Positions 22,030 to 38,809 of a DNA stretch of 52,949 bases are shown here, in pieces (position 1 is the first letter of the stretch; the number at the start of each line of letters is the position of its first letter). This stretch comes from a virus, in the IMG/VR virus record IMGVR_UViG_3300045120_000139, positions 1-52,949 of that record. The stretch is one strand, 5' to 3'. A program made the position numbers and the translations under genes. The notes under the pieces were generated by a model, which did not search any database, was not told the DNA's origin, and worked only from the letters and a program-made list of their open reading frames with translations.

Positions 22030-22503
22030 TTAAGCCTTGAAGTGAAAGGTGCGGGCACCGGTACGCTGGATGGAAGCGGACGACTTCACATTGGCATTGA
22101 CCGCCAGATCGAGTGGGACGTCGGCGACGTAACCCAGGAAGCTGATATACGTGCGCGTGGTCGGGTAAGTCACAACGCCGGTTCCTGCGTTCACGGTAGG
22201 GAGCGCCGTGCCGTCCGAGAGCGCGACGATCCAGGTGTTCGTCGTATCGTTCTCGTCCATATGGATGAGATCCTGATGTGAGACCTTCGACGGATCGAAA
22301 TCCAGATCGATTGTCAGCGCGCCAGGATTCGGCATGCCAGGGCCGAATTCCATTTCCAAGCTGTCCAAGCAGGTCTCGTCGATCTGAGGCTTTGCGCCAC
22401 CCAGACCTTGTACACCCTTCGGACAGCCGAGCTTGACCAACGAATAACCGTTGGAGTTGTTGAAAACAAAAAACACCTCTGTACCTTTTGTGCGAACTGC
22501 CAC
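22030..22503 (-). CDS. Major tail tube protein
   Basis: 157 residues from GTG 22503, which has AAGGAG 8 bases upstream. Typical tube features: FNNSNGYSLVKLGCPKGVQG, ETCLDSLEMEFGPGMPNPG, then LTIDLDFDPSKVSHQ and a beta-rich C-terminus ending FHFKA. Placement directly before the G/GT chaperone and after the tail completion gene supports it. It would polymerise into the non-contractile tail tube. Confidence 0.82.
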   Translation of the reverse strand: MAVRTKGTEVFFVFNNSNGYSLVKLGCPKGVQGLGGAKPQIDETCLDSLEMEFGPGMPNPGALTIDLDFDPSKVSHQDLIHMDENDTTNTWIVALSDGTALPTVNAGTGVVTYPTTRTYISFLGYVADVPLDLAVNANVKSSASIQRTGARTFHFKA

Positions 22504-22515
22504 GACTGTTCTCCT

Positions 22516-22698
22516 TCATCGATGAAGGCGCCGGTTGACGCCAGGAACGGTTGCTTGCCCAACCGGTTTGCGACGGAGCGCTCCGTCGTATTCGAATGTT
22601 CTATGCGGTCCTATCGCGCCGCGGGTCGCCGGATTCACCGCGCTACCGTATTGCGAAGCTACCGGAGGCTGACTAGACGCCAGCCCAGTACACGACAC
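22516..22698 (-). CDS. Doubtful small ORF in the gap before the tail tube gene
   Basis: 60 residues from a GTG with a poor ribosome site. The sequence (SQPPVASQYGSAVNPATRG ... RKPVGQ) has no recognised family. It fills most of the gap between the tail completion and tail tube genes, so that stretch is either this small gene or an untranslated leader of the tail tube message. Confidence 0.25.
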   Translation of the reverse strand: MSCTGLASSQPPVASQYGSAVNPATRGAIGPHRTFEYDGALRRKPVGQATVPGVNRRLHR

Positions 22699-22718
22699 AC
22701 ACTTGATCGCGCGTCGAA

Positions 22719-23099
22719 CTAATTTTCACGGGCTATGAAGAACTCCGCGTCCAGGCTCCAGCGGAATAACTTCGTGTCAGGCTCGAACAATGGTTCCGGG
22801 CCGCGCACTACATGCGTCACACCTTCCATTGCCGCCAAGGCGCGTTCGGACAGAATCCGCGCGCTTGTCTGGAATGCCGAATAGCAGTCGATCTGCACGA
22901 GTTGATCATCATCGTCAGGTGGGTCAGATAGGTTGTTATTCGGGATGCTGCTGATGATGCTCCACACGATGTAGCTGAGCTGATTTCCGCTGGCGTCCTT
23001 GGTCTTGCTCTCATCCAGCACGATCTGCTGGAAGATACGCTCGCCAACCAACTCCGTTACGCCGCCCCAGTTCTCCAAGGTCTGCTGTACCGGAGGCAT
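22719..23099 (-). CDS. DUF3168-like tail completion/terminator protein
   Basis: 126 residues. Features: PPVQQTLENWGGVTELVGERIF at the start, SYIVWSIISSIP, DDDDQLVQIDCYSAFQTSAR, and the end FRWSLDAEFFIAREN. The pattern Y(I)VW ... VQIDCY, followed by VTHVVRGPEPLFEPDT, fits the DUF3168 family (HK97/SPP1-type tail terminators). It precedes the tail tube gene as expected. Confidence 0.8.
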   Translation of the reverse strand: MPPVQQTLENWGGVTELVGERIFQQIVLDESKTKDASGNQLSYIVWSIISSIPNNNLSDPPDDDDQLVQIDCYSAFQTSARILSERALAAMEGVTHVVRGPEPLFEPDTKLFRWSLDAEFFIAREN

Positions 23100-23610: not shown

Positions 23611-23764
23611 CGGGTATTTCCATGCGCAACAGCTGCTCGCCATTGTCGCGGTTTTCGATAACGGTCTGGACGCTCCATTGGTGACCGTCGCCGAGCCACA
23701 TCTTGTCGCCAACCACCTTCAGCACGCCGTCAGGCGGCAAGTAGACCATCTGCGAGGTAGCCAT
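23555..23764 (-). CDS. Hypothetical protein, 69 aa
   Basis: ATG 23764 overlaps the glycosyltransferase stop (TAATG). Contains VYLPPDGVLKVVGDKMWLG and VQTVIENRDNGEQLLRMEI, suggesting a small beta-rich domain. Its 3' end overlaps the next gene by 56 bases. No family recognised. Confidence 0.55.
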   Translation of the reverse strand: MATSQMVYLPPDGVLKVVGDKMWLGDGHQWSVQTVIENRDNGEQLLRMEIPDEDLLTCDGTEYVPVDCR

Positions 23765-24414
23765 TAGCCGACGTGTTCCATTTCGCGGCGCGCAAAGTGC
23801 CACAAGTCAGCCGCTGGCGCGCTGGTGTAGTAGTCAAACGCGGGCATTCCGGCAGTCCAGTGAAGCACCTTTCCGCCTTCGTGCTCCTGGCCCTCATCCA
23901 CCAGCCGATTCCATTCGGCAGGCAGTGCGCCGATCTCGCTGTCCTTCAAGAAGCGCAGCCCTAGCAGGTCAGCCGGCAGCAGTTCATTGATATCGATGCG
24001 CCACGCCGGATGCGCGCAGTTGAAGATGGCGACGGACATCCAGTTCTTGCGCTCATAGTTCAGGTTCGGGCATTCCATAGATGTGCAGCGGTACTTCGTG
24101 CGGTGCTGTGTCTTATAAGGCGGATGCTTGACAACCTGAACCGCGAACTGCGGATCGAACAGCGCATCGAGCTCGGCAATGTCGCCTAGGCACAGCATGT
24201 CGCAGGCGTCGGCGAAGATGGCGTGGCCCTGATAACCCATCAGCTTTGGCACTAGGAAGCGCGAGAGCGTGAACGCGTTCGACCCCTCGCCCATTCCCAT
24301 CGATGCAAGCGGCGTGATGCTCACCGGCACAGTGGCACGGCGCAGGACGCTATCGGCGAAGACATGGAACCCGAGGCTTTCCCTGATGTCGTGCCCCGCA
24401 AAAAGATTTATCAT
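23764..24414 (-). CDS. Glycosyltransferase (GT-A type, GT8-like)
   Basis: 216 residues. The protein has SNAFTLSRFLVPKLMGYQG followed by AIFADACDMLCLGDIAEL, where DACD resembles the metal-binding DxD motif in the nucleotide-sugar site. Next come AELDALFDPQFAVQVVK and MSVAIFNCAHPAW, then HWTAGMPAFDYY near the end. These are features of GT8-type transferases. It could decorate virion protein or host surface sugar; substrate not visible. ATG 24414 sits beside a hairpin. Confidence 0.7.
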   Translation of the reverse strand: MINLFAGHDIRESLGFHVFADSVLRRATVPVSITPLASMGMGEGSNAFTLSRFLVPKLMGYQGHAIFADACDMLCLGDIAELDALFDPQFAVQVVKHPPYKTQHRTKYRCTSMECPNLNYERKNWMSVAIFNCAHPAWRIDINELLPADLLGLRFLKDSEIGALPAEWNRLVDEGQEHEGGKVLHWTAGMPAFDYYTSAPAADLWHFARREMEHVG

Positions 24415-24479: not shown

Positions 24480-24980
24480 ATGGCTACCACAGATTCTACC
24501 GCGCTCGTCGCTAGGCTTCGCGAACTTCTCACCTACGATCCATCCACCGGCATTCTCAGATGGCGTGTTGGCAAGTCCAACGTCAAGGCTGGAAGCGTGG
24601 CCGGCGGCCTGAATGATCAAGGCTACATTTTGCTCAGAGTCGATCGCGTTGCCATGCGCGCGCACAGAGTAGCGTGGGCAATCATGACTGGCTCCATTCC
24701 AACCCTTGAGATTGATCATAAGAACAGAATTCGATCAGATAACCGATGGGAAAATTTGCGCGAAGTAACGCACGCCCAAAACTTCGAAAATCTCAGCATG
24801 CGAAAGGACTGCCGGCATGGATTTAGAGGTATCGAATTGCACAGCAGCGGCCTCTGGAAAGCCCAGCTCACGATAAACAAAAAACGCATTCGTCTTGGCT
24901 ACTTCAAAACGCCAGAAGAAGCATTTCAAGCAAGACTAGCCGGCGAGGCTAAATATTTTAAGAATCAGCGGGTCGCCTAG
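24480..24980 (+). CDS. HNH homing endonuclease with AP2-like DNA-binding domain
   Basis: 166 residues on the strand opposite to all neighbours. HNH core: AHRVAWAIMTG (H62), LEIDHKNRIRSDNRWENLREVT (residues 77-97). The C-terminus, GFRGIELHSSGLWKAQLTI-KKRIRLGYFKTPEEA, fits an AP2 domain. ATG 24480 has GGAG upstream. The gene is more AT-rich than its neighbours and overlaps the methyltransferase 3' end by 23 bases. This is the usual look of a free-standing mobile endonuclease inserted between genes. Confidence 0.9.
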   Translation: MATTDSTALVARLRELLTYDPSTGILRWRVGKSNVKAGSVAGGLNDQGYILLRVDRVAMRAHRVAWAIMTGSIPTLEIDHKNRIRSDNRWENLREVTHAQNFENLSMRKDCRHGFRGIELHSSGLWKAQLTINKKRIRLGYFKTPEEAFQARLAGEAKYFKNQRVA

Positions 24981-25470
24981 CCTCGAGTCTAAAGTCTCTG
25001 TGCTCCCTGCCGCACGGATGAAAGACGGTTTGCGCTTCGATGATCGACACGAAACCTGCGGCCTCGACTATTGGCCGCAACGTCATGAACGAGTAGGCGT
25101 AGCGGTGCAGCATGTGCTCGTCTTCCGTTCTCGTATCGCCGTACAAGGCCCACAGTCCAAGCTGGTCCGGATGCTTGCCGCCCTTCTTCTTTCCTTCCAC
25201 GATGTTCAGGCATGCCTTGTACAAGTCGGGCATCTCCAAGATCAGACGTGCGCCCTTCTTGAGCAACCTGCGCCATTCCCTGAGTGCGAACGGAAGTCGC
25301 CACGGCAAGATGTGCTCGCAGAGATGAACCGCTAGCACTTCCTCTGCGCATTCGTCGGGTAGTGGTATGGCGTCAGCCGGCGCAACGATATCCGCTGCAT
25401 CGCGCTTCACCGCATCCACGCCGGTATATCCAGGCAGCTTTCGCGTGCCGCAGCCCACGTTCAATCTCAT
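24958..25470 (-). CDS. SAM-dependent methyltransferase
   Basis: 170 residues. Motif I is MRLNVGCGTRKLPGYTGVD (residues 1-19), followed by DAIPLPDECAEEVLAVHLCEHI and the block ALREWRRLLKKGARLILEMPD. This is a Methyltransf_11-type small-molecule or sugar methyltransferase. It probably methylates a product of the neighbouring glycosyltransferases (inference from neighbourhood). The 3' end overlaps the convergent HNH gene. Confidence 0.82.
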   Translation of the reverse strand: MRLNVGCGTRKLPGYTGVDAVKRDAADIVAPADAIPLPDECAEEVLAVHLCEHILPWRLPFALREWRRLLKKGARLILEMPDLYKACLNIVEGKKKGGKHPDQLGLWALYGDTRTEDEHMLHRYAYSFMTLRPIVEAAGFVSIIEAQTVFHPCGREHRDFRLEARRPADS

Positions 25471-25474
25471 GCCG

Positions 25475-26212
25475 TTATTCTCCAGTCAGTTCGCGTAGGA
25501 ACGCCCAAGCGTCTAGCGCTTCTTCGTGATTCCACTGGAGCCATGCGAGTTGACGCAGGAAGGCCACGCGGTCGCCGCGATAGGCCATTGCGGCTCCGTC
25601 TGAGCATTCGAATGGAACGCCAGCAATGATCGCGTCGATCGCCACGTTGCTGTGATGAGTCACAACCAGCGAAGCGCCGTCTAGTACCTTGTCGATCCTC
25701 GGCGCGTCCGCATGCCGCAACGGCTTCTCTCGTACGACTATGGGCCGCGAAGGGAATCGATATCTCAATGCAGCCAGCGCCAGCTTGTCCCATTTGCCGT
25801 GCAGCGTCTTCGACTTGTGGCCCATCCCGGCGAACACAACCGGTCCGCTAGCGTTTGCCACGGAGCGAAGGCGGATTCCAGAGTTTTCGAATCGCTCGGC
25901 TGGCCAAGTCTTCTTCCAGACCCATTCCTGCGGATGCATCGCATCTATTGAGACCCGCATCATCCGCTGGCGATCCCAGTATCCGAGATCCCATGCAATC
26001 GTCCTGCGTCCTGAGCGGATGTGCGACTCGAAGGCGCGAATGCGATCTTTCCCGCCCGCGCCGTAGAGCATCAGCCAGTCAGACTTGCCTGAATATCTGG
26101 ACACCAATGTCGCATCAACGCGCGCTTTGGCAGCGCATTCAATCAACGCGCCGAGCATTGTCTTGCCGCGCATCGCGGTATCGTTCGTAATCAACACCTC
26201 GCAACTCAACAC
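25475..26212 (-). CDS. Capsule-type glycosyltransferase-like protein (paralogue of 27795 gene)
   Basis: 245 residues. The C-terminal part shows VVTHHSNVAIDAIIAGVPFEC, like the sugar-nucleotide site of KpsC/KpsS or other GT-B proteins, followed by an arginine/tryptophan-rich end (LRQLAWLQWNHEEALDAWAF). The same plan occurs in the gene at 27795 (VVTWGSGAAVLALIWGIP ... LRCLAWGQSTHSEIRSG), so the two look like paralogues. It overlaps the upstream gene by 7 bases. Confidence 0.6.
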   Translation of the reverse strand: MLSCEVLITNDTAMRGKTMLGALIECAAKARVDATLVSRYSGKSDWLMLYGAGGKDRIRAFESHIRSGRRTIAWDLGYWDRQRMMRVSIDAMHPQEWVWKKTWPAERFENSGIRLRSVANASGPVVFAGMGHKSKTLHGKWDKLALAALRYRFPSRPIVVREKPLRHADAPRIDKVLDGASLVVTHHSNVAIDAIIAGVPFECSDGAAMAYRGDRVAFLRQLAWLQWNHEEALDAWAFLRELTGE

Positions 26213-27051
26213 GCGAATTGCGCCTTCAGGAAGGTGTGCAAATCAGCCGCTGCATGCTCGACTGTGTAGGCGGCCCGCACAAAGCGATCGCAAATCAGTT
26301 CGCGCGCCGATTGGTCAGCAAGCCAGTTCAGCGCGACCCGCAATTCCTGCGGATCGTCGGCCCAGTATTCGCAGCCCGTGGCGATCTCTAGATAGCCAGC
26401 TTCGCGCGCTCCGATGAATGGCGTCCCAGAAGCGTGTGCGTTCTCGCACTTCACGCCACTCTTCCAGTTGCGCGCCGTATAGCCCTTCGGATTGCGAACC
26501 GCAAGAACTACATCGCAGTCCGCTAAACGAACAGGATTCACGACAAACTTCGCGCCGATGCGCTCACATTCCTCGCGAATCCATTCCTGACAGCCGTCAA
26601 GGTATACGGCCGAGCCTTCATAGCCAACTACCTGCACCCGCTCGCGTATCGGATTGCGCGCTATGCCAGGCCGATGATGATGCCGTAGCCAGAGAACCGG
26701 AAGGCCGAACTGCTTCAGGTCTTCCGCCATCCGCGCCGTGGCTGCGATCACAGCATCTGGCCTGATGCGGTCAAGTTCCTCGCTGAGCCAGCGCATGGCC
26801 GAATCCTCGGCCCAGTAGTTTCCGTTAAGCATGCCTTGTTGCTGCGGCCAAGCGTCCAGAACGTCATAGACGATCTTACGCCCGCGCATCGCGCGAAGCG
26901 TCCTGTCCTCGACGCGTTTCACGATCACCACGACATCCGCGTCGGAATGTGTTGCGTTCGGGATTGCTTCGGAGCCAAGTGCTTGTGAAATCTGCTCCCC
27001 GCGCACACGCCAAGATCCGGACGTGCCGCGCCCGGTGAAAAGGATTTTCAT
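26206..27051 (-). CDS. GT-B-like glycosyltransferase
   Basis: 281 residues. Starts MKILFTGRGTSGSWRVRGEQ, typical for the N-terminal Rossmann half of GT-B enzymes. The C-terminal half contains NWKSGVKCENAHASGTPFIGAREAG, resembling the donor-binding half (conserved K, N and an acidic or small loop), then LRVALNWLADQ. Donor and acceptor cannot be read. It is 3 bases after the peptidase gene, in one transcript. Confidence 0.68.
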   Translation of the reverse strand: MKILFTGRGTSGSWRVRGEQISQALGSEAIPNATHSDADVVVIVKRVEDRTLRAMRGRKIVYDVLDAWPQQQGMLNGNYWAEDSAMRWLSEELDRIRPDAVIAATARMAEDLKQFGLPVLWLRHHHRPGIARNPIRERVQVVGYEGSAVYLDGCQEWIREECERIGAKFVVNPVRLADCDVVLAVRNPKGYTARNWKSGVKCENAHASGTPFIGAREAGYLEIATGCEYWADDPQELRVALNWLADQSARELICDRFVRAAYTVEHAAADLHTFLKAQFAC

Positions 27052-27054
27052 CGG

Positions 27055-27588
27055 TCAGATGGATTCGATATGAAACGGACCGCGAACACCGCCACTGTGC
27101 GCTTCTGCAGCTGCAAGGGCTGCCTTGATGCGCTCCCGCGCCGGCATATCGCTCAGTGCATGCAAGGCGCCATGCGCAATGTCCATACCGCAGCCGCAGG
27201 CCGCATATTTCGCGGCGTTCTCTCCGACTTGGTAGTCCTCGCAAATGTTGAACAGCCTGCCGGCGTACCCTATCAAAAATTCGCCCGCCGACTCCTTTTC
27301 ATTTTCCTTCTTCGCGTAGCCAGCAGACTTCAGGCATGCGCGCAAGGCATCGATGAAATCAGTGACCATGAAATGCATTACGTCCTTTTCAACTGGACGC
27401 TTCGGCGGAGTGAATCCATACGCCAGAATCTGACCCATTCGAAATGAGGTCGTGAAACCGATCAAGAATTCGCCGTTCTTGAATACCTTCCTGTCCGTGC
27501 GAACCTGCAAAGTCCATCCTGCAAGACCAGCGCTATCGCCACCGATCCAAACCTTACCTTTATCTGCAACGCCAACAATTGCCGTCAT
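27055..27588 (-). CDS. Proteasome/HslV-like Ntn-hydrolase peptidase
   Basis: 177 residues from ATG 27588 with AAGGTGAG upstream. After removal of Met the protein begins T1-A-I-V-G-V, with D17 (WIGGDSAG) and K33 (RTDRKVF). These are exactly the catalytic Thr1, Asp17 and Lys33 positions of proteasome beta subunits and HslV. Later blocks include FLIGFTTSFRMGQIL and ACGCGMDIAHGALHAL. It should form a self-compartmentalised threonine peptidase (family knowledge). No HslU-like unfoldase is coded nearby. It sits inside the sugar-gene block, just downstream of a candidate small RNA. Confidence 0.82.
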   Translation of the reverse strand: MTAIVGVADKGKVWIGGDSAGLAGWTLQVRTDRKVFKNGEFLIGFTTSFRMGQILAYGFTPPKRPVEKDVMHFMVTDFIDALRACLKSAGYAKKENEKESAGEFLIGYAGRLFNICEDYQVGENAAKYAACGCGMDIAHGALHALSDMPARERIKAALAAAEAHSGGVRGPFHIESI

Positions 27589-27636
27589 GTTGCTCACCTT
27601 GCCGTGAGTAAGCGGGCGAATGCGTCGCCCGACCAT

Positions 27637-27794: not shown

Positions 27795-28517
27795 TTATAT
27801 ACCTATACCAGAGCTAAGCAACCTTTCGAAGGCTAGGCCGCTGCGAATCTCGGAATGAGTGGATTGCCCCCATGCCAAACACCTCAGCATCGCAAGGCGC
27901 CCTTCGTCCGTGTTCTCGCAAGCCGCAATCCAGTAGCGCTGGTGCGACTCTACCGGGATGCCCCATATCAACGCCAGAACCGCAGCACCGCTGCCCCACG
28001 TCACGACGCGCCCGCATTGCGCCAAGTCCTCGCGGAGCGGCTTGGAGTTCGTGTTGCGGCCTGGGTGCGCCCTGATGCGGCCACGCTGGCGCTGCGGCCA
28101 ATCGCCCGGCATGCGGTATGCAGCCGGACCTATGCCGCGAGATGCCAGAACAACGGTCTCGCCCTCAGTCCGCCACGGCTCAAGTTCAACGCCGAGCGAA
28201 TCGAAGCGGTCAGGACCGAGATCCGGAAACGTCCCCGCGACATTGTGGAAATTCCTTGTTAGCGTGTACCACTCGCGGCCGGCGAACGAATTGCCCCAGG
28301 TCGCGTTCTCTGTCACCAGCACAGTGTTGCCACGCTCCGTGAAGATGCGCGCAACCGTGTCGCCTTCATGGATGCGATTCCATGTGCAGAGTATGTCGCC
28401 GGGCTCAGGCGCATGCGTCATGCCGTCAACGACTTCGTAGCCGAGCCTGCGCAGCCCTTTCGTGAACATCGCGCGCCGTTCTGGAACGGTAAAACGGAGA
28501 TTCAGGTATGCGCGCAT
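27795..28517 (-). CDS. Glycosyltransferase-like phage protein, 240 aa
   Basis: Starts MRAYLNLRFTVPERRAMFTK. Contains GDILCTWNRIHEGD, NTVLVTENATWGNSFAG, a TRNFHNVAGTFPDLGPDRFD block, and ASRGIG. The C-terminus has VVTWGSGAAVLALIWGIP, shared in plan with the gene at 25475. I know this type from phage genomes as capsule- or glycosyltransferase-like of unknown substrate. It directly follows the head closure gene with no gap, so this block is co-transcribed with the head genes. Confidence 0.6.
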   Translation of the reverse strand: MRAYLNLRFTVPERRAMFTKGLRRLGYEVVDGMTHAPEPGDILCTWNRIHEGDTVARIFTERGNTVLVTENATWGNSFAGREWYTLTRNFHNVAGTFPDLGPDRFDSLGVELEPWRTEGETVVLASRGIGPAAYRMPGDWPQRQRGRIRAHPGRNTNSKPLREDLAQCGRVVTWGSGAAVLALIWGIPVESHQRYWIAACENTDEGRLAMLRCLAWGQSTHSEIRSGLAFERLLSSGIGI

Positions 28518-28868
28518 TCAACCACGATTTATCAATGCAATCGCCGGAATGCTCATCCAATCCAACCCAGTCTCAGGATCGCGTATCGGCGGCGCAAGGT
28601 TGAATATCGTTCCGTCCACCCCGTTGATCACATGCACCGCGCGCATGCTCGCCTTGATGGCCGAGTTGTAGCGCATGATGATCACGGTCGTGCTTTCCGA
28701 GGCAACCTGCTCGCTGGCGAGAAGATCGCGCGCGCTCAATGGGCGAATTTCAGCCCAGAACGTATCGAGTTCTTCCCATTCAACATCCGTCTCGCCGAAG
28801 CTGTTCTTCGTCTGGACTTGCTGCTCAACGCGGATGCGATGACGCAAGCGCCCTGCAAGCAGTTTCAC
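28518..28868 (-). CDS. Head closure / head-tail adaptor protein
   Basis: 116 residues from GTG 28868, which overlaps the connector stop (GTGA). Features: AGRLRHRIRVEQQVQTKNSFGE near the start, then VEWEELDTFWAEIRPLSARD and STTVIIMRYN. This is the head-tail joining family (SPP1 gp16 / HK97-type). It would close the portal and accept the tail. An in-frame longer start is rejected because it would overlap the connector gene widely. Confidence 0.85.
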   Translation of the reverse strand: MKLLAGRLRHRIRVEQQVQTKNSFGETDVEWEELDTFWAEIRPLSARDLLASEQVASESTTVIIMRYNSAIKASMRAVHVINGVDGTIFNLAPPIRDPETGLDWMSIPAIALINRG

Positions 28869-29254
28869 CAGCGCCACCAGCAACGGCGAGTCTTGAGCTT
28901 GGCGTACTCCGCATCCGTGACGCCGCATGTCGGTACGCGGTATGGGTAAAGCAACGCCGAAACAGGACGCGGCAAAAACCCCAACTCGTATTCGTGCCCG
29001 CCATCTTCGTCGCGCTGCCGATCGAAATATCCGATAAGCATCAGCGTGGCGATCTGCACATCTTCCGGGACGTCGATCGCAATACCGGCACTGTCCTCCG
29101 GAATCTCCCCAGACGACTCCGCGAACGATGGCGATTTCAGATAGGTGACTACTGCGCGCGACGCGGCCTTCACCTTCAGCAAGATGTCGTTGTCTCCATC
29201 CGTTGTATCTACGCGCAGATGCTCCCTTGCCTGCTGAAGCGTGACGAGCATCAT
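28865..29254 (-). CDS. Head-tail connector (HK97 gp6-like)
   Basis: 129 residues. Pattern: VTLQQAREHLRVDTTDGDND, then KVKAASRAVVTYLKS, and VQIATLMLIGYFDRQRDEDGG, ending in ALLYPYRVPTCG. This is the Phage_connect_1/gp6-like family that binds the portal. The ATG at 29254 overlaps the previous stop. Confidence 0.88.
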   Translation of the reverse strand: MMLVTLQQAREHLRVDTTDGDNDILLKVKAASRAVVTYLKSPSFAESSGEIPEDSAGIAIDVPEDVQIATLMLIGYFDRQRDEDGGHEYELGFLPRPVSALLYPYRVPTCGVTDAEYAKLKTRRCWWRW

Positions 29255-29853
29255 TGCGCGATTCTCACTGGCCGCGGCGCCTGAGCTATCCTCACCGTCT
29301 CACGTCCATCACGCCCGCGCTTGACGGCCAAGCGCCAATCCTGGCTTGTCCCAGGCTCACCCTCAGGCCCATCCTTTTGCGCAATAAAGAACGAACCGCG
29401 CCAGCTTACGCCGTCGCCTTTCAGATATGAGTCCGCATCCACATCCCACACGCCACGATCGAGAAAAGCAGCGAGCTTGACGGGAAACTCCTTGATGCTG
29501 TCGCCAAGCGAAAAGCGGAACACCGCATTCCTTTCATCGATCTGCTCGAATGACAGATTATCGAACCCCAGCGCATCCTTGCCGTCCTTTGGCTTAGGTG
29601 CATTCTCCATTGCTCGAATCAGCAAGTCTTGAGCGCGGCGCTCGAAGTCCAGTTCCCAGCTTTTGACGGCCGGTGCAAGAGAAAGCGCAACATCTTCTGC
29701 GGTGATGCTATGCGCTTTGTTGATGGAATCCACGTCCTTCCTGAGCGCCGCAATAGACTCGACGATCGGAGCAATAGCCTTTGCGCACATCGATCGCATT
29801 GCAGCAGCGACAGCTTGCGCCATGCCTTTCGACTGAGCCGCTGTGTCGCTCAT
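29251..29853 (-). CDS. Head-associated protein with carbohydrate-binding-like C-terminus
   Basis: 200 residues from ATG 29853. The N-terminal half is helical. The C-terminal part (residues about 130-185) has GVWDVDADSYLKGDGVSWRGSF, then FIAQKDGPEGEPGTSQDWRL and VKRGRDGRE. This resembles the small chitin-binding-type modules seen on phage head fibres and decoration proteins. It may be exposed on the capsid (inference). Confidence 0.65.
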   Translation of the reverse strand: MSDTAAQSKGMAQAVAAAMRSMCAKAIAPIVESIAALRKDVDSINKAHSITAEDVALSLAPAVKSWELDFERRAQDLLIRAMENAPKPKDGKDALGFDNLSFEQIDERNAVFRFSLGDSIKEFPVKLAAFLDRGVWDVDADSYLKGDGVSWRGSFFIAQKDGPEGEPGTSQDWRLAVKRGRDGRETVRIAQAPRPVRIAQ

Positions 29854-29942
29854 TTCAACTCCCAATAATTTCCTAAGTTCAATGCGACATCCTTCAGCCG
29901 CGACTTGATGACGCATAGGGCGCGCTCGGCGAGGGATTTCAT
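29850..29942 (-). CDS. Micropeptide, 30 aa
   Basis: ATG 29942 directly follows the fibre stop (TAA-ATG). The TGA at 29850-29852 overlaps the next start (ATGA). Sequence: MKSLAERALCVIKSRLKDVA and LNLGNYWELK, one amphipathic helix. Tight coupling on both sides argues for a real gene. Function is unknown. Confidence 0.5.
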   Translation of the reverse strand: MKSLAERALCVIKSRLKDVALNLGNYWELK

Positions 29943-32030
29943 TTAGTTCTCGGTGTAGACAGAGATCGATTCCACACCGATCGTGGCGTCGCCAGCGGTG
30001 GTGTTGGCCGTTCCGTTCGACATCAGGACCGCATATCCGAGAGCCGTGGTGTTGACTGGCAAGTCCGTGTTCGTGCATGTGTCGACCAGCGTCGTTGCCT
30101 GAATAAGATCATCGAGCCTGTAACAAATCTGTGTGTCGTTTGGATATGCATGAATGTAGGCGATGAACGCAGTGTTGTTCGTGGCAAGCGTTGCCTGCCC
30201 GCCAATCGCATCCTTGGTGGCTGTGCCGCTTCCATCGTTGTGGCAGAACGTCCAAGCCGTATCGCCGAGATCAAAGCAGAACCCCGCAATATTCACCAGC
30301 GAGGAAGGATTTCCGGTTACCGTGTTCGCTCCGGCGGTCGATGGCTGCATCCCGACAAAACCGCGCATGCCTGTCTTGATCGAGGTGAAGCCGAACCGCG
30401 TGATCTCCATGAACCCGCCGACGCCCGCAGCATTACCGCGGAAGTGAGAGAACGCCCCCTCGCGCATCCCCACTTGCTGATTCTGCGTCGTCACCACCGA
30501 AGCGAATGTGCTTCGCTTCATCGTGGTGTATCTGTTCGTAATCGTTGGGGTGGGTGAGGCGGCCGTTCCGGCTTGTGAGTTCGGCACGCCGTACACCAAT
30601 CCAGCGGCGCCGCCTGTAGCCATCCATCCGCTCTTGAAACCACCCGCCTCCGGGAATTCCAAATATCGCGGGACGCCTAGTTGTCCGACATCGCAAAGTG
30701 TTTCGCGACCGGAGAGTTTGCAAGCCTGGAACGTGGTGTTGCTGGCCGCCGGCGCCGATTGAATTGCAGCGGTTGCCATCACCAGCGACGGTGTAGATGA
30801 CAGTGTCTGCGCTCCCGTGATCGTCGGCGTCGCAATCGTCGGACTCGTGCCGAGCACGACGGAATTGCTGCCAGTGGTGCCGTTTGTTAGATCGGAGGCG
30901 GCCAGCGTCTGAGTGCCACCGAGCGCCACGGAATGACCGGCGATGGTCATCGACGAGTTGCTGAGCGTCGCGTTCGGAATAGCGCTCAGCGTCAGCACAC
31001 CAGAGCTGGAAAGCGTTGCGGTTGCGCCCGAACCACTTACTGTAACCGGCGCGTATGCTGTGCCGCCTGCATTGCCTGCGAGGATTTGACCAGCGCTCGG
31101 TGCCGTATTCGGAACGATCGCGGCCTTGGTCTGCGCGTCATTGGTTACGTTGCCTAGCACCGAACCGCCCAGGGCTGTTGACGTTCCGCCGATGGTGATG
31201 GACGAATTCGCAAGGTCCGCGTTCGCCACGGTCGCGCACGTCGGCACAGCGCTGCTGTTGATGGAACGAACGAACTGCGTGGTGCAGGTTCCGCCCGGCG
31301 TGTTGCCGTTGACCTTGGCGACCGTGGGGCCGGGATAGCTTCCGGACAGGTCGCCGCTTGCTGAGCCGTTCGGCGGCAAGGACGTTGCCGAGCACCCGGT
31401 CGCGCCGTTGGACAGGTCAGCGCACGCCGCCTGCGAGACGACGCCGGAGCCGTTGCCCTTGAGCGCGCCCGTGATTGTGCCCGCACCGCCGCGTGCTGCT
31501 GCGAGCGTGCCGCTGCCGATGTTCGAAGCGTTGGTCGCGTCCGTCGCGCAACTGGCCGAGGCATCGGAGAGATCGCCACACGCCGGCTGCGCAGCTGCAG
31601 GAACGCCGCTGGTACTGATCGAGGTAAGGAAGTTGTGCGATACCGCCGTCTTCGACTGCACGCCACCCAGCGACGACGACGACGGATTCGGCAGCCGCGC
31701 CGCGCCAAGCGTGCCGGAACTGATGTTGCTGGCGTTCGTGGTATCGGTCGTGGCGCTGGCAGCAAACGCGACGCCATTGGTCTTGGTGCAAGTCAGCACG
31801 CCAGAGCCGCCGGGCGTGGTGCAGTCGCCGCTGAGCGGCGCCAGCATGGTCAGGTCGAGATAGCCGAGCGGGTTGATTAGCGGCACCTTGGCCGCGTCTC
31901 CAGCGCCTGCGCTCGTGTCCTTGGCCGCGACGAGCCCATGATTCGGCGGGTTGCTGGTGACTAGTGTATTGGTCGCCGCACCGGCTGAAATGGAAATCAG
32001 CAGCGCGAGCAGTGCATGGAATCGCATCAT
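29943..32030 (-). CDS. Fibre-like structural protein with N-terminal signal peptide
   Basis: 695 residues. The N-terminus [19 protein letters not shown] looks like a Sec signal peptide with cleavage after AGA or GAA. The rest is low-complexity, Ser/Thr/Gly/Asn-rich with repeated blocks such as [18 protein letters not shown], and [19 protein letters not shown], as in phage tail fibres. The C-terminal about 200 residues form a globular domain with several Cys. It lies among head genes, next to collagen-like proteins. A head fibre is the likely role (inference). The signal peptide is odd for a virion protein. Confidence 0.65.
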
Positions 32031-32923
32031 GGAATCGGACCATCAGGGGTTTGAGTACGGAGATTCAAAACCGTTGCGCTCAATGCGTCGCCGAGGACGC
32101 AGATGTAGTTTCCGGAACCTGGAACGGCGGCAGTCAGGAATCCGGCCGTGGCCGCGCTGAGATAATATGTTCCAGCGCTCAGCCCGCCAACCTCTCCAGA
32201 GACAACCGCGTCCCATTGAGCCGTGGGAAGGCTCACTGCGCCGCCAATCTGTATTGAACCGGTTGCGCCAGCGACAATCGACACATCAGCCACCAGCCCA
32301 CAGACGCGAATGGTATTGACCGAATTTGCTCGAGCACGCTTCACTACGCCTGCGGCACTGATGTAAACGGCCATGCCAGCGGTCAGAGTAACGCTGTCGC
32401 CATTCTGCATCTGCACGAAGAACTGCGATGGTCCGGCAGCGCCTGTTGGGCCTGGCGGTCCGGTTGGGCCAGTGGATCCGGATATGTTGACGTCTCCAGC
32501 TCCGACGCTGGCGACTACTCCGCCATTCAGGCCTTGCGGGCCGCGCAGATCTACCGCCAACCCCCAAGTTCCATCGGGGTTCTGAAATTGCAGCTTTGTG
32601 CCTAGCCAGCGATGCGCAGGGATTGGCCCTTGCGGTCCCTGCGGACCTTCTGGGCCTCGCTCTCCGACAGCGCCGGCCGGACCAGGAGCGCCGCGCGCTC
32701 CTGTCTGACCTTTCTCGCCTACCTCGCCACGGAGGCCACGCGGACCGCCCGGAGGGCCTTGCTCGCCACGCGGGCCAGGGTCGCCCTTGGGGCCGCGCTC
32801 GCCGCGGTCTCCACGGTCGCCCTTGCTGCCAATCTCGCCCTGCAGGCCAGACCTGCCGCGCAGCACTTCCCGTTTTTCTACGCAAATCTCACTGATGAGA
32901 CGCGTAAGCTGGCGCTCATCCAT
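32027..32923 (-). CDS. Collagen-like protein, 298 aa
   Basis: Gly-X-Y repeats at about residues 22-100 ([16 protein letters not shown]) and again near 140-165 ([13 protein letters not shown]), joined by a short beta segment, [16 protein letters not shown]. The C-terminus is beta-rich, a likely trimerisation or decoration domain. It overlaps the fibre gene and the next collagen-like gene at both ends. Probable trimeric fibre on the capsid or neck (inference). Confidence 0.8.
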
Positions 32924-33323
32924 TCACTTCGGCCTCGAGCGCGGAACGAAATTCGGCGAGATCGAAGCCGAACTCGCCCGGATCACCTTTCTCGCCCTTC
33001 TCACCGCGTTCACCTGACAGGCCGCGCGGACCGGCATCACCTGGTTCACCTTGTAGGCCGCGCTCGCCAATAGCGCCGCGGTCTCCGCGTTCTCCGGTGT
33101 CCCCACGTTCGCCCTGTGGACCGATAAGGCCGTCCAGCCCATCCTTGCCGTCGATTCCGTCTCGTCCTTCCTTGCCCGCAGGAATGGCCTTGATGGCTTC
33201 CTGCCATTCCAAACGCGCAGCCGAGAGACCGCTGTCAATGCGACTGGCAAGTTCATCAAGTGCAGGCTGAACAAAACCGCGAACCTGTTTCATTACCACC
33301 AAGGCAAATTGCGAAATGTCCAT
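32916..33323 (-). CDS. Collagen-like protein, 135 aa
   Basis: An N-terminal helical segment, [18 protein letters not shown], is followed by G-X-Y repeats (residues about 52-118: [13 protein letters not shown]...), ending [16 protein letters not shown]. The start overlaps the portal stop. It may interact with the other collagen-like protein to build a fibre stalk. Confidence 0.8.
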
Positions 33324-34756
33324 CAGGCGGCCTTCGAATGGATTGGCGCGGGAAGTGAAAGAGGCGCGATGCTGGCCGTCACAAGTTCGAACTCCGCCTC
33401 AAGTATGTCGACAGTGATTGCCTTGGCCGGAGGTGCTTGCGCCGGATCCGCTGTAGCTGGTGAGCCATCAGCGGATGGCGTTGGGTTCGAAGTTGGCCGA
33501 TCGATCACAAACGGGTTATCCAACGAGTCGCGCTTCGAAAGGGCTTTGAGGCTGAAATTCTGCTGCTGAAGGTACGGCGTATCGCCGCCCGCAGCCTTCC
33601 GGAGGCCGAGTTTCTTACGCGCATCGTTCGGCGCCAGCATGCCGCGCGCAACACCCTCGCCAAGGGTATTCATCTGAGTCTTCTGATCCATGCGCAGCAA
33701 GGCGTCTGTGTCCAGAAGAATGTCGTACGGGTCTTTGATTCCCAAGCCTTCCTCAAGCAGTTGCTCCATCTTCTCGATAAGCGTCTGCAGGCAGTCGCTC
33801 AGATATTGCTGGTTCAGGGCTTCAATGTTGTCGTAGCTCGGCATGGTTCCAACACCGACCTTGTGCGGCGGCATCTGGAAAACCGTGCAGACCTGAAGGT
33901 CGGACATCTTGAGTTGTTCGATCATCTGCGCATCCACGCTGCTCATTGTGAGCTGCGTGAATTTCAGACCGTCGCCGAGGATGGCGACCTTTCCTGCGTT
34001 CTCGCCCGTATATCCAGCGTTGAACTTCTTCTTCAATTCCGAGGCTTGCTCGTCGCCAATGTTTCCAGGCGCCGTGATGATGCCGCTGATTTTTGCACCG
34101 TTGAGATAGAAGCGGGCCGAGTTCTTTTCGATCTCCAGTCCCACAGCCGCAGGCAGTGCAGCTGCGAAAAGCGGCGAAATGCCTATCAACGGATGGAATA
34201 GGCAGTTCATTCGGTCATGGATGATCTCTGACGCCGGAACCACGACAGACTCCGGAAGCTCAGAAATGTTGTCTGCCGAGAGCTGGTAGAAAATAGACCC
34301 GTCAGTCGCCACAAGAGGCTGCACGCGAAGCGGATTCAGCACATGCAGCGCCGTGACCACGCCACGGTTGTCTCTCTGCTTGAGAACAAACGTGTTGCCA
34401 GTGCGCAGCTTGCTGATGATCCATGACTCTTTGAAGTCGATATGGGTCTGGAACGAATTCGGCTTGTTCAGTACCGGAGAAAATGCCGGGCTGGTGGTTT
34501 CCTCGTAGACGTCATCCTCGACTTCGGCAACCAGCATCAAAGCCATCTTCCCGATGTCTGACGAGATGCGCGTGATGCAGGCAAAAACTGCGGTATGTGA
34601 GAGCGCGGTCTCCGGGCTGCATTCCAGATTGCGCTGCCACGCTCCGCCGAAAGGTTCGCGTACTACTGGGAACCACCCACCCCCGCCGAATACGTTGGAC
34701 ATCCAGTTCGGCGCATTCTTCTTCGAACGCGTTATTTCCAGCCCGAAGAAACGCAT
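33323..34756 (-). CDS. Portal protein (HK97 family)
   Basis: 477 residues from ATG 34756, overlapping the previous stop (TGATG). Signatures: [62 protein letters not shown], then [21 protein letters not shown] and [18 protein letters not shown]. All are standard for HK97-type portals. It forms the dodecameric DNA channel. The gene lies downstream of the capsid gene, not between terminase and protease as in HK97. Longer in-frame starts are rejected. Confidence 0.92.
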
Positions 34757-34980
34757 CAGCTTGTGGCCGTGGTCATCACGCGGCGGCGATAGGGACGCTT
34801 CGCACGTTCTGCCATAACGCCCGCGAGTGCAGTTTGAGTCTCGGCGTGCGCAGGAGCGCGCTCGCACCAGCCAAGCGCTTCGGCGATCTTTGCCGAGTCT
34901 TCGTCTGCCTCGTAAATGTCGCCGGGAGATTTCTGTCGCTGGTTCATCGTGTGACGAACCAAGGTCTTCATTCGTGCCAT
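34756..34980 (-). CDS. Hypothetical protein between capsid and portal genes, 74 aa
   Basis: ATG 34980 has TTGGAG 6 bases upstream. It reads MARMKTLVRHTMNQRQKSPGD, then DEDSAKIAEALGWCERAPAH and a basic end, KRPYRRRVMTTATS. It follows the capsid terminator. Small, charged, no known family. By position it could be a head-assembly accessory. Confidence 0.6.
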   Translation of the reverse strand: MARMKTLVRHTMNQRQKSPGDIYEADEDSAKIAEALGWCERAPAHAETQTALAGVMAERAKRPYRRRVMTTATS

Positions 34981-34990
34981 GTGAAACTCC

Positions 34991-35019
34991 AAAAGAGGCG
35001 CCCGGTTTCCCAGGCGCCT
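34991..35019 (-). terminator. Terminator after the major capsid gene
   Basis: Minus strand AGGCGCC pairs with GGCGCCT around a 10-base loop, followed by CTTTTGG. It lies 28 bases after the capsid stop. A partial terminator here would raise capsid expression over downstream genes. Confidence 0.65.
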
Positions 35020-35047
35020 TTCCAACCACAAACTCACTGAGAAACGG

Positions 35048-36508
35048 TTAGACCGGGAATCCGCCCCAGTGCACGCCGGTCAGGTAGAACGCGGCCTGGC
35101 TGCGCGCTGCTTTCCAATTTATCCAGCGCTCCGCCCTTAACGCCACCGAGTTCGTCTGGAACATCGAGACCAGCGAAGCGCCGGTACCGGTCGCCGACGA
35201 GTTCGACGGCGCATCGGACATTTCCAGCGAAGCCTCGCGGCTGGCATCGACCGCCACCTGGCCGTCATCAGCCAGAAGGACGTCGTCTTGCTTGAGCAAC
35301 ACCACGATGTGCGCGCCGTCCGAAGCGCCCACGATGCCCGCGGCGTTCGACACGATGATCGGCAGGCCTTCCAGCACGCCGCCGTTGATGTCGACGCCAG
35401 GGAACACCTTGTTGCCCAGCGAGTTCACCATCAGGCCGAGCGCCATCGCGGTGACCGGCGACATGATCCACACGCAGTTCACTGGCGTTTGATTGCCAGA
35501 AATAAACGGCGCGAATGCCGTCATGATGTCGGTTGCGATGCCGGCCTGCGTGTTCGTGCCAGTGGCTACGGCAGTCGCCGCACCATTGGTGATCGATGCC
35601 GGCTTGATGATGCCGGAACCCGCGTTCGCAGGATCGATGAAGTCGCTGTCGAGCTGCTGCACGATGGCCGCTGCGAGGTCATTGCGGACCAGCATGTCGG
35701 CCCCCGGTGTGGACAGACGCAGCGTTTCGTCCGTAATCACCGTGATCGCTGCGATCTTGGTGAAGTCGAGCAGCACAGTGTCGAACGCCTGCGAGGTCAG
35801 CGGCTTGGCTTTGCCTTCACCAACCCATCCTGCCGTTCCGCCACCCGTCTGACGCTTTACGCGAACTTTGAACGGAACGCGACGAACCGCCGTCAGCTTG
35901 CCGATGATTGTCTGCGGACGCAGGAACTCGATGAACTCGCTGGCGAGGTCCTGATACTGGACCAGGGCGCCGGCAAATGCCGAGTTCGACGTGAGGGCTG
36001 CGTCGACCGTGGCCTTCTCGATGAACTGCGTCGACTGGCCTTGGCCGAAATGCATCTTGATGATGTTGTGCAGCGGCGTCTCTTCGGGATAGAGCGACTT
36101 GGCCTGTTCGAAAGCATCTCGAGCATTGCCGTTGCTCATCGCCATGAGTTTCACGAACCGCGTAAAGCCGATGCCGGGCGGCAGCTTCTTCTCGACAGCA
36201 ACCACGCGCTGATGGCCGGCGCGCGCGTCGCGTTCCTGGTTCGCTTTCCGCGCGGCGACGATCGGGTCTTCATCCGTCTCGACGGTGATCTTGGTAGCCG
36301 TCGAAGCAAGAAGCTTCTCTGACTTCGCCAGACGCGCCAGATGCGTGTCGATCGTTTCGATTTCCTTCTCGATCGCGTCGTATTCCTCGGCCGCTTTCGC
36401 GTCCAGAGTTTCGCCGTCGACCTCGGACTTTTCGAGCAGCACCTTGAGGGCCGCTGCCTTGACCGCACGTGCGTCGGTGAAGGACTTGATCTGACCTTGG
36501 ATGTTCAT
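35048..36508 (-). CDS. Major capsid protein (HK97 fold)
   Basis: 486 residues. Residues 1-110 form a charged helical scaffold-like delta domain (SFTDARAVKAAALKVLLEKSE; ETIDTHLARLAKSEKL), then the capsid domain: SEFIEFLRPQTIIGKLTAVRRVPF, GWVGEGKAKPLTSQAFDTV, ITVITDETLRLSTPGAD, FPGVDINGGVLEGLPIIVSN, and FQTNSVALRAERWINW. The start overlaps the protease stop by four bases. The delta domain is presumably removed by the adjacent protease. Confidence 0.95.
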   Translation of the reverse strand: MNIQGQIKSFTDARAVKAAALKVLLEKSEVDGETLDAKAAEEYDAIEKEIETIDTHLARLAKSEKLLASTATKITVETDEDPIVAARKANQERDARAGHQRVVAVEKKLPPGIGFTRFVKLMAMSNGNARDAFEQAKSLYPEETPLHNIIKMHFGQGQSTQFIEKATVDAALTSNSAFAGALVQYQDLASEFIEFLRPQTIIGKLTAVRRVPFKVRVKRQTGGGTAGWVGEGKAKPLTSQAFDTVLLDFTKIAAITVITDETLRLSTPGADMLVRNDLAAAIVQQLDSDFIDPANAGSGIIKPASITNGAATAVATGTNTQAGIATDIMTAFAPFISGNQTPVNCVWIMSPVTAMALGLMVNSLGNKVFPGVDINGGVLEGLPIIVSNAAGIVGASDGAHIVVLLKQDDVLLADDGQVAVDASREASLEMSDAPSNSSATGTGASLVSMFQTNSVALRAERWINWKAARSQAAFYLTGVHWGGFPV

Positions 36509-37131
36509 GTCTCTGCCTTTGGTAGGGGGATGTCAGCAAGGCGGACGACGCCAGCCTTGGATTTGCCCGCGACGCCGGGCGAGAGACGCACAACACCAGC
36601 AGCAGGTTTGCCAGACGCGGCGCGCTGCTTGGAGTCAAGCGATTTGATGGTTTGAATGGTGCAGTCGGAGTTGCACGGTATCGTCACGACGGACAATTCC
36701 ATGACCTCGGTTTCGTTGAACTTGATGCCGCCGGTTTCCAGGAATTCCATTGCGTTGTTAACCGCGCGGAACCCGATGGACAGGCCGGCTACGAGCTTGT
36801 ACTTGATCGACTGTACAGCCTCATTGATTCGATCCTGAAGAATCCCTGCCTCTTTGACTTTTGGGATTGCCGCAGTGATTGGAATGCCGGACTTCGTGGC
36901 CTTCGCATTCGTGACGTTGCCGATCGGTGAGCGGGAATCGTGCTGCCACAGAAGCGGCAACGGTAGAGCGAACTTCGCTCCCATCGGGTCGATGATATCG
37001 CCGAGACGGTCAGGCGTCGGGGTAGTTGCAAGCCCGGTGATGTAGTAATTGTTCTCGTCCTCTGTGAAGGCACGGATGTCGATCTTCGAATATCCGCGTG
37101 TGATCACTTCAGGACTGGTTTCGGTTTGCAT
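36505..37131 (-). CDS. Prohead protease (HK97 S78-like)
   Basis: 208 residues. Catalytic positions are visible: H64 in LWQHDSR, S118 in AGLSIGF, and E145 in EVMELSVV. The protease would mature the head by cleaving the capsid delta domain. It is coded between terminase and capsid genes. The C-terminus carries two AGVVRLSPG / AGVVRLADI repeats, perhaps a cleaved tail. Confidence 0.92.
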   Translation of the reverse strand: MQTETSPEVITRGYSKIDIRAFTEDENNYYITGLATTPTPDRLGDIIDPMGAKFALPLPLLWQHDSRSPIGNVTNAKATKSGIPITAAIPKVKEAGILQDRINEAVQSIKYKLVAGLSIGFRAVNNAMEFLETGGIKFNETEVMELSVVTIPCNSDCTIQTIKSLDSKQRAASGKPAAGVVRLSPGVAGKSKAGVVRLADIPLPKAET

Positions 37132-37141
37132 CTCAAAACTC

Positions 37142-38809
37142 CTATACCCAAACGCAGTTGTATGTTTTCTTCTGCGGCGCAGGATTCAGCGACATCAGCG
37201 TCACTGCATCGAATGTCGCCATCAGCGGATCGATTTTGGCGGAGCCAGAAATCTGCTTCGTGATCATGATGGCATTGCCGCGAGGCTCGACCTTCGCGTT
37301 TCCTACGCACCACGCCATCAGGCTCGACGCACAATGCACGAACTGACCCTCGGCCAATTTCCGCTCAGTGGTCTTGATGGCTCCGACCATCTTCCAGCCC
37401 TGAGGGATTCCGACGATGCGCTCAATCGAAATGCCGATACCAACCAAGGCGTCCATGATCGAACCGAGCTCTGCCTGGTCAACTCCGACGCGCTCGAGCA
37501 ATCCAGCGTCCTCGCACTGCTTGATGCGCGCAACAAGATGCTCGATGTCGTCGCCGATCTTTTTAACGATCGTGAGTTCGCCGAGTTTTTCGAAATCCCG
37601 GAAGCGCGCTGCTTCCTTTTTTCTGCGCTGCAGCACAATCGGGTGAATCCAGGCATGCGCCCAATGCAGCCACAATCCGGTCTTAGCCTCCCTGCCAACT
37701 ACCGATAGCCCTAGCATGTCGTCTAGGCCGCCACCATCGATCCCTGCGGTGACCACCTCGCAACGTGCCAGCAATCCTTCGAGTGTTAGACCGACCTCTG
37801 CCTGACACTCCCAGAAGTCGCTACCGGCCCAACCGTTCGAATGCAGCGACAGACCGATCTCGACATTCAGGTGCTTGGCCAGGAAGCCACGGACAGACTC
37901 TTCGCCGGACTCCTCGGCCTTCATCAGCTCGCGCTGCAGGAACTCCTCATCGACTGAGGCGCCGAGGTTAGGATTCGTGATGTAGGCGTTCGCCAGATCC
38001 CGGCACGACTCGTCCTCAATCATGGCCTTCGGGAACTCGTAAATCACTGGCAGGAATCGCTTATCGGCTATCCGCCCGTCCCTGACGCCGCGGGCATAGT
38101 CCAGCTTCTGCTTGAATACGCCTGCCGGCGCTTCATCTGACTCGGTGGTCAGGTAGATCACGAACCCTTCGGGCCGAGATGCCAATCCGCCCGTTGCCTC
38201 ACGGAGCATGTTCTCGGCATTTGCACGCTTTCCGAACAGCCAAAGCTCATCGATCAGGACGCCAATGGCCTTCTTGCCACCGACCGCTTCGCTATCCGCA
38301 GCGATAACCTTGAGCGTCGCGCCAGTCGTTCGATGCGTGATGGTGCGGTAGTGTTCCTGCACATGCATTAGGTCGGACAATTCCTCATCCGACTTGACCA
38401 TGTCCCGTGCTGGAAAGAACGAATTGTTCGCCGTCTCGATGGTTGGCGCCAGAATGATGAACTCGCCGGACATCCTCCAGTTCAGGATCAGCGCCGTCAG
38501 CATGATGCCAGCGGCAGTGGTCGACTTCGAATTCTTCTTTGCCATGCAAAGCAGGAACTCGCGGATCAAGCGCCGACCCGATTCGGCATCGTAGGAACCA
38601 AACACCGCCGCCACGAAATCAAGTAGCCATTCCCTGCTTATGGCGCCCATCTTCGGGCTTCCAGCCACATCCACAACGCAGAGCTCGCGGAAAACCTTCA
38701 GCGCGATGTCTGCCTGGTCCTGAAATAGCGGCGGGAAGGTGATGAGCGAGCGCCGCTCAACAACCCGCTGCTCCCAGTCCAAGCAAGCAGTTGACCACGC
38801 TGGAATCAT
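37142..38809 (-). CDS. terL: Terminase large subunit
   Basis: 555 residues. ATPase: Walker A variant AKKNSKST (residues 90-97) and Walker B VLIDELW (184-190) with D187/E188. Nuclease: D358 in TAGIDGGGLDD plus D363/D364. It matches HK97-type Terminase_1. It packages DNA at the portal and cuts concatemers. The start overlaps the small subunit stop (ATGA). Confidence 0.95.
   Translation of the reverse strand: MIPAWSTACLDWEQRVVERRSLITFPPLFQDQADIALKVFRELCVVDVAGSPKMGAISREWLLDFVAAVFGSYDAESGRRLIREFLLCMAKKNSKSTTAAGIMLTALILNWRMSGEFIILAPTIETANNSFFPARDMVKSDEELSDLMHVQEHYRTITHRTTGATLKVIAADSEAVGGKKAIGVLIDELWLFGKRANAENMLREATGGLASRPEGFVIYLTTESDEAPAGVFKQKLDYARGVRDGRIADKRFLPVIYEFPKAMIEDESCRDLANAYITNPNLGASVDEEFLQRELMKAEESGEESVRGFLAKHLNVEIGLSLHSNGWAGSDFWECQAEVGLTLEGLLARCEVVTAGIDGGGLDDMLGLSVVGREAKTGLWLHWAHAWIHPIVLQRRKKEAARFRDFEKLGELTIVKKIGDDIEHLVARIKQCEDAGLLERVGVDQAELGSIMDALVGIGISIERIVGIPQGWKMVGAIKTTERKLAEGQFVHCASSLMAWCVGNAKVEPRGNAIMITKQISGSAKIDPLMATFDAVTLMSLNPAPQKKTYNCVWV

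Follow-up and report, generated by a model that had tools for sequence, protein, structure and literature searches.

A phage-borne, proteasome-like peptidase with an intact catalytic triad and no HslU/ClpX-type partner in its virus record

The virus record IMGVR_UViG_3300045120_000139, whose full length of 52,949 bp is the window analyzed here, encodes a small protein with the catalytic residues of a proteasome beta subunit. This raises the question of what kind of enzyme the protein is, and how it might work in a genome that encodes no unfoldase of the HslU or ClpX type. Fuchs, Alva, and Lupas described 22 new proteasome homologs in 2021, among them the AAH and PPH classes, both of which are borne by phages (PMC8665760). 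The reading we favor, and consider somewhat probable, is that the protein is an intracellular, ring-forming threonine peptidase of the AAH class that would act on unstructured polypeptides independently of an unfoldase.

Gene, active site, and fold

The peptidase gene lies on the minus strand, running from an ATG at position 27588 to a stop at 27055, and comprises 177 codons plus the stop; the plus strand is not open across 27055-27588. A Shine-Dalgarno-like sequence, AAGGTGAG, is visible at 27589..27600 on the minus strand, about 5 nt upstream of the ATG, and all 85 homologs compared begin with (M/V/L)-T at the same place as the peptidase. Together, these two observations support the start at 27588, and the gene at 27588-27055 is real. 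The shared threonine start contradicts an in-frame ATG farther upstream, at 27636, which would add 16 residues.

Translation confirms the residues named in the sequence-only reading: counted after the initiator methionine, T1, D17, and K33 occupy exactly the catalytic positions of proteasome beta subunits and HslV. The Thr1/Asp17/Lys33 triad is unvarying among the 85 homologs. The threonine directly follows the start codon in every one of them, and thus there is no propeptide. In a wider set of 113 sequences, three of which are HslV, Asp17 and Lys33 are present in all and Thr1 in 112. The position aligned with the proteasome oxyanion residue Gly47 is Thr46 in the peptidase and Ser or Thr in 98 of the 113 sequences, whereas HslV and BPH retain the glycine. 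As far as the alignment reaches, this is a family-wide variation, not a loss specific to this protein, and classical peptidase activity could be changed or lost as a result. Because a backbone NH serves as the oxyanion donor, Thr46 does not exclude activity. The description of the active site as intact therefore applies to the triad and should be read as such, since the oxyanion loop is non-canonical.

Searches of Pfam and NCBIfam with the peptidase gave nothing significant, and its PHROGs match is to "peptidase HslV family" (E = 3.9e-22). The family phrog_1040 has matches in 264 of 299 proteobacterial genomes as well, cellular HslV being their evident source, and for this reason cannot separate the classes by itself. 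An AlphaFold model built from 10 homologs (pLDDT 92.5, pTM 0.88) shows a compact proteasome fold, with proteasome-type strands, a short S3/S4 turn, and the helix pairs H1/H2 and H3/H4 (residues 49-58, 70-88, 135-144, and 150-164), and with a strand ending the chain. Helix H2 (residues 70-88) is 19 residues long and is followed by a long charged loop, YAKKENEKES. When the model was searched against the Protein Data Bank, 1007 matches were obtained at E ≤ 0.001. The best solved match is BPH (5OVS; TM 0.81-0.82, E = 6e-12), followed by HslV and then by 20S beta subunits. The 10-homolog sequence profile finds BPH independently and over its full length (E = 3.2e-7). The structure prediction and search proposed as a check in the sequence-only reading thus returned a proteasome-type Ntn fold. 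Among predicted viral structures, phage proteins of 180-200 residues match the model at a TM of about 0.9; a class of 131-154 residues, which includes the "proteasome subunit beta" of Caulobacter phage CcrBL9 and the "Ntn hydrolase" of CcrColossus, matches much less well.

The Ntn fold supports many reactions, and connectase, a member of the same superfamily as the proteasome homologs, is a ligase (PMC8665760). Connectase shows that a fold of this type can ligate instead of degrading, and we count this against the reading of the protein as a peptidase. A non-degradative enzyme, such as a protein ligase or an amidase with one specific substrate, would also agree with the altered Gly47 site and with a family-specific SFRM motif that is nearly invariant, its Arg49 being present in 85 of 85 homologs. 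The model nevertheless has no helical insertion between S3 and S4 as in connectase and does have H1 and H2, which connectase lacks, and we regard a ligase or amidase as quite unlikely. An Anbu-like architecture was likewise rejected, as the model has no long C-terminal H5 coiled coil and its chain ends with the strand after H4.

Genomic surroundings

The placement of the gene between the head and tail modules, as claimed from the sequence alone, is right. Genes for head closure (Hc1) and the head-tail adaptor (Ad1), recognized by PHROGs, lie just upstream (28518..29254), and those for the major tail protein and the tail terminator lie downstream (22030..23099), with the tape measure gene farther on. 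The packaging and head module, with the terminase large subunit, prohead protease, major capsid, and portal genes, spans 33323..38809; all of these genes are on the minus strand. The portal gene is followed by genes for two collagen-like (Gly-X-Y) proteins in succession, both with tail-fiber matches (32027-33323, minus strand). An ORF at 29251-30078 (minus strand) matches, over its C-terminal 90 residues, a PHROG annotated as portal protein, although the full portal gene is at 33323-35029; this stretch is probably a domain common to tail or fiber proteins.

Closer to the peptidase, the evidence for a block of sugar genes is uneven. A glycosyltransferase-like protein is encoded at 23764..24414, with phage homologs annotated as glycosyltransferases or nucleotide-diphospho-sugar transferases, and homologs of the 240-residue product of 27795..28517 are encoded in Caulobacter giant phages within a cluster of sugar genes, next to a sialyltransferase-like gene. 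The ORF directly downstream of the peptidase (26206..27051, 281 residues) is a possible GT-B glycosyltransferase, but its PHROG match is weak (E = 0.04), the search for relatives found none, and its single-sequence fold model has a pLDDT of 32. A Class I SAM-dependent methyltransferase is encoded at 24958..25470 (Methyltransf_11, above the Pfam cut-off). All four genes are on the minus strand. The peptidase and its downstream gene are flanked by two paralogous proteins of unknown function, the 240-residue one just mentioned and a distant, 245-residue paralog at 25475..26212 on the same strand (28% identity over 144 residues). Within the same region, the plus strand encodes an HNH endonuclease (24480-24980) that also has a weak AP2-like match; its gene runs against the late genes around it and looks like a homing insertion.

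Co-transcription with glycosyltransferase-like genes had been proposed as well. The downstream ORF starts 3 bp past the peptidase stop, in keeping with this proposal, whereas the 206-bp gap upstream of the peptidase contains a terminator-like hairpin with a T-rich tail that matches the consensus (27667-27646, minus strand). The peptidase gene may therefore begin its own transcript. The hairpin is only suggestive, since terminators over the whole region show no excess over shuffled sequences.

We surveyed the neighbors of the gene at 85 loci, which comprise the window itself and 84 phylogenetically non-independent relatives, including one bacterial contig. The immediate neighbors are on the same strand in 151 of 167 cases, and the commonest that can be identified are terminase and portal genes. 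A terminase gene lies within 1 kb at 18 of 26 loci (6.2 expected), and a portal gene within 200 bp at 12 of 38 (4.7 expected); the expected counts were derived from the other genes at these loci, and the loci are related. A conserved link to sugar genes is unsupported across the homolog loci, and the Caulobacter phage homologs of 27795..28517 cluster with sugar genes where no peptidase is present. The emphasis that had been placed on the sugar genes is thus not general, and the link is a local one.

The enrichment beside terminase and portal genes, seen also in the closest relative (L014, 65%), where the peptidase gene is just downstream of the terminase, is what would be expected of a protease for head assembly, or of a virion component, that acts on the scaffold, portal, or terminase as heads mature. 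In the window, however, the terminase is about 9.5 kb from the peptidase, and a prohead maturation protease of the Peptidase_S78 family is encoded separately (36505..37131, minus strand), which disfavors the peptidase as its replacement. Of 11 relatives tested, eight also encode an S78 prohead protease above the cut-off and another encodes a ClpP-type protease. Nor is the link to head and packaging genes universal, because in large phages the gene is found among genes for nucleotide metabolism or replication, in one setting close to thymidylate synthase and dihydrofolate reductase, and replication genes are neighbors in some relatives. A role in head assembly or in the virion is therefore improbable in our judgment.

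No AAA_2 domain of the HslU/ClpX type is encoded anywhere in the record, which bears out the claim that an unfoldase gene is missing nearby and extends it to the whole record, and none was found above the curated cut-off in the contigs of the 11 relatives. The peptidase is thus not accompanied by an unfoldase, and it does not take the place of the maturation protease. Given the HslV-like fold and the lack of an unfoldase in the phage, a host AAA+ ATPase, either HslU or ClpX, could feed its chamber, so that the host machine would be redirected to substrates chosen by the phage. The score of the peptidase against the NCBIfam HslV equivalog model is 10.2, however, against a cut-off of 137, it shares about 20% overall identity with HslV, and the varied bacterial and phage backgrounds of the homologs argue against one conserved docking partner. 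We consider such a host-fed chamber unlikely.

Independence from an unfoldase is favored instead, because the long charged loop after H2 is shared with BPH and such a loop was linked with unfoldase independence by Fuchs et al. (PMC8665760). In the unfoldase-independent peptidase that we propose, the start methionine would be removed, as expected before threonine, exposing Thr1 as the putative nucleophile together with Asp17 and Lys33. The subunits would most likely assemble into a ring like those of BPH and HslV, and this ring may admit unfolded chains or peptides with no dedicated ATPase. The enzyme would probably work inside the cell during infection, where it would trim or clear away unstructured polypeptides of phage or host origin, and in many small phages it would do so alongside the expression of head and packaging genes.

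Relatives in phages and on rhizobial plasmids

Homologs are carried by at least 207 phage records at E ≤ 1e-3, and the viral-contig loci with homologs number at least 588; even as lower bounds, these counts make the family one of a known kind. Plasmids and whole-genome samples were the sources of the bacterial homologs. Seven copies on symbiosis plasmids of Rhizobium, Sinorhizobium, and Mesorhizobium (L123, L124, L128, and L157-L160) form one clade (support 100/98). This clade is nested among phage sequences, with a viral contig (L018) as its sister (99/83). In Sinorhizobium, the copy is flanked by rpoN-nifQ on one side and the nifS region on the other. All seven copies are preceded, about 109-124 bp upstream, by a sigma-54-like site that agrees at 11 of 12 scored positions (null frequency of 0.002-0.01 per locus), and a TGT-N10-ACA motif of the NifA type is present farther upstream in each; since the seven loci are related, their promoter matches are not independent tests. 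Taken from sequence comparison, these features suggest that the symbiosis-plasmid copies derive from a phage gene captured into the nif regulon. Copies from Paraburkholderia branch separately, beside another viral contig. On the plasmids of P. phymatum and P. sabiae (L125 and L162), the stop of the preceding ORF overlaps the start codon of the gene.

A wider proposal, which we put forward tentatively as a possible one, is that the gene for an unfoldase-independent, proteasome-like peptidase of phages, often linked to terminase or portal genes, was taken up by alphaproteobacterial rhizobia, where NifA and sigma-54 came to control it as part of the nitrogen-fixation regulon. If this is true, the same kind of enzyme serves virus assembly and, separately, nodule bacteria. 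A literature search for work linking symbiotic plasmids, NifA, and proteasomes revealed nothing specific.

Phage-borne proteasome homologs are common and are conserved to the last catalytic residue, and this locus offers a clean and small example. The leads added here are the linkage to terminase and portal genes, the family-wide Ser or Thr at the oxyanion glycine, and the phage-derived copy in rhizobial nif regions.

Comparison with known proteasome homologs

The literature searched yielded no experimental study of AAH or PPH: neither activity nor oligomeric state is documented there for an AAH protein, and no substrate, partner, or solved structure emerged for phage-borne proteasome homologs. 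The family was described in 2021, so the peptidase joins one that is already known but functionally uncharacterized.

HslV (ClpQ) shares the fold, the triad, and the proteasome-beta-like core with the peptidase. Identity between the two is low, the peptidase falls below the cut-off of the NCBIfam HslV model, no HslU accompanies it, and its SFRM motif differs, so that its identification as HslV was rejected. The earlier label of an HslV-like protein therefore remains apt for the fold, but BPH and the published AAH class match better. BPH, the beta-proteobacterial proteasome homolog (PDB 5OVS/5OVU), is the best fold match, has a long loop after H2 as well, and, like the peptidase, has no known unfoldase; it is about 20% identical to the peptidase and differs in keeping the oxyanion glycine.

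The PPH class shares with the peptidase its carriage by phages, its proteasome-like character, and the lack of an unfoldase. PPH proteins have about 140 residues and no helix H2 (PMC8665760), whereas the peptidase has 177 residues and the 19-residue H2. PPH-like proteins of 131-148 residues clearly differ from it, and this identity was rejected.

The AAH class (KEGG OC.661151) was described from alphaproteobacteria, actinobacteria, and many phages as a compact group I subunit with helices H1-H4, no S12/H5, and no propeptide (PMC8665760). By this published description, AAH is the best filing for the peptidase, because H2 is present and close homologs lie on Rhizobium and Sinorhizobium plasmids (57-62%) and on Streptomyces plasmids (53-56%), besides more than 200 phages. 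In the AlphaFold model, helices H1-H4 are followed by the ending strand, and the threonine follows the methionine. The peptidase and AAH thus have in common the compact H1-H4 fold, the lack of a C-terminal H5 and of a propeptide, and the T1/D17/K33 triad; the peptidase family likewise occurs in alphaproteobacteria, actinobacteria, and many phages, with no linked AAA+ gene. No feature was found that separates the two, AAH being known here by its published description.
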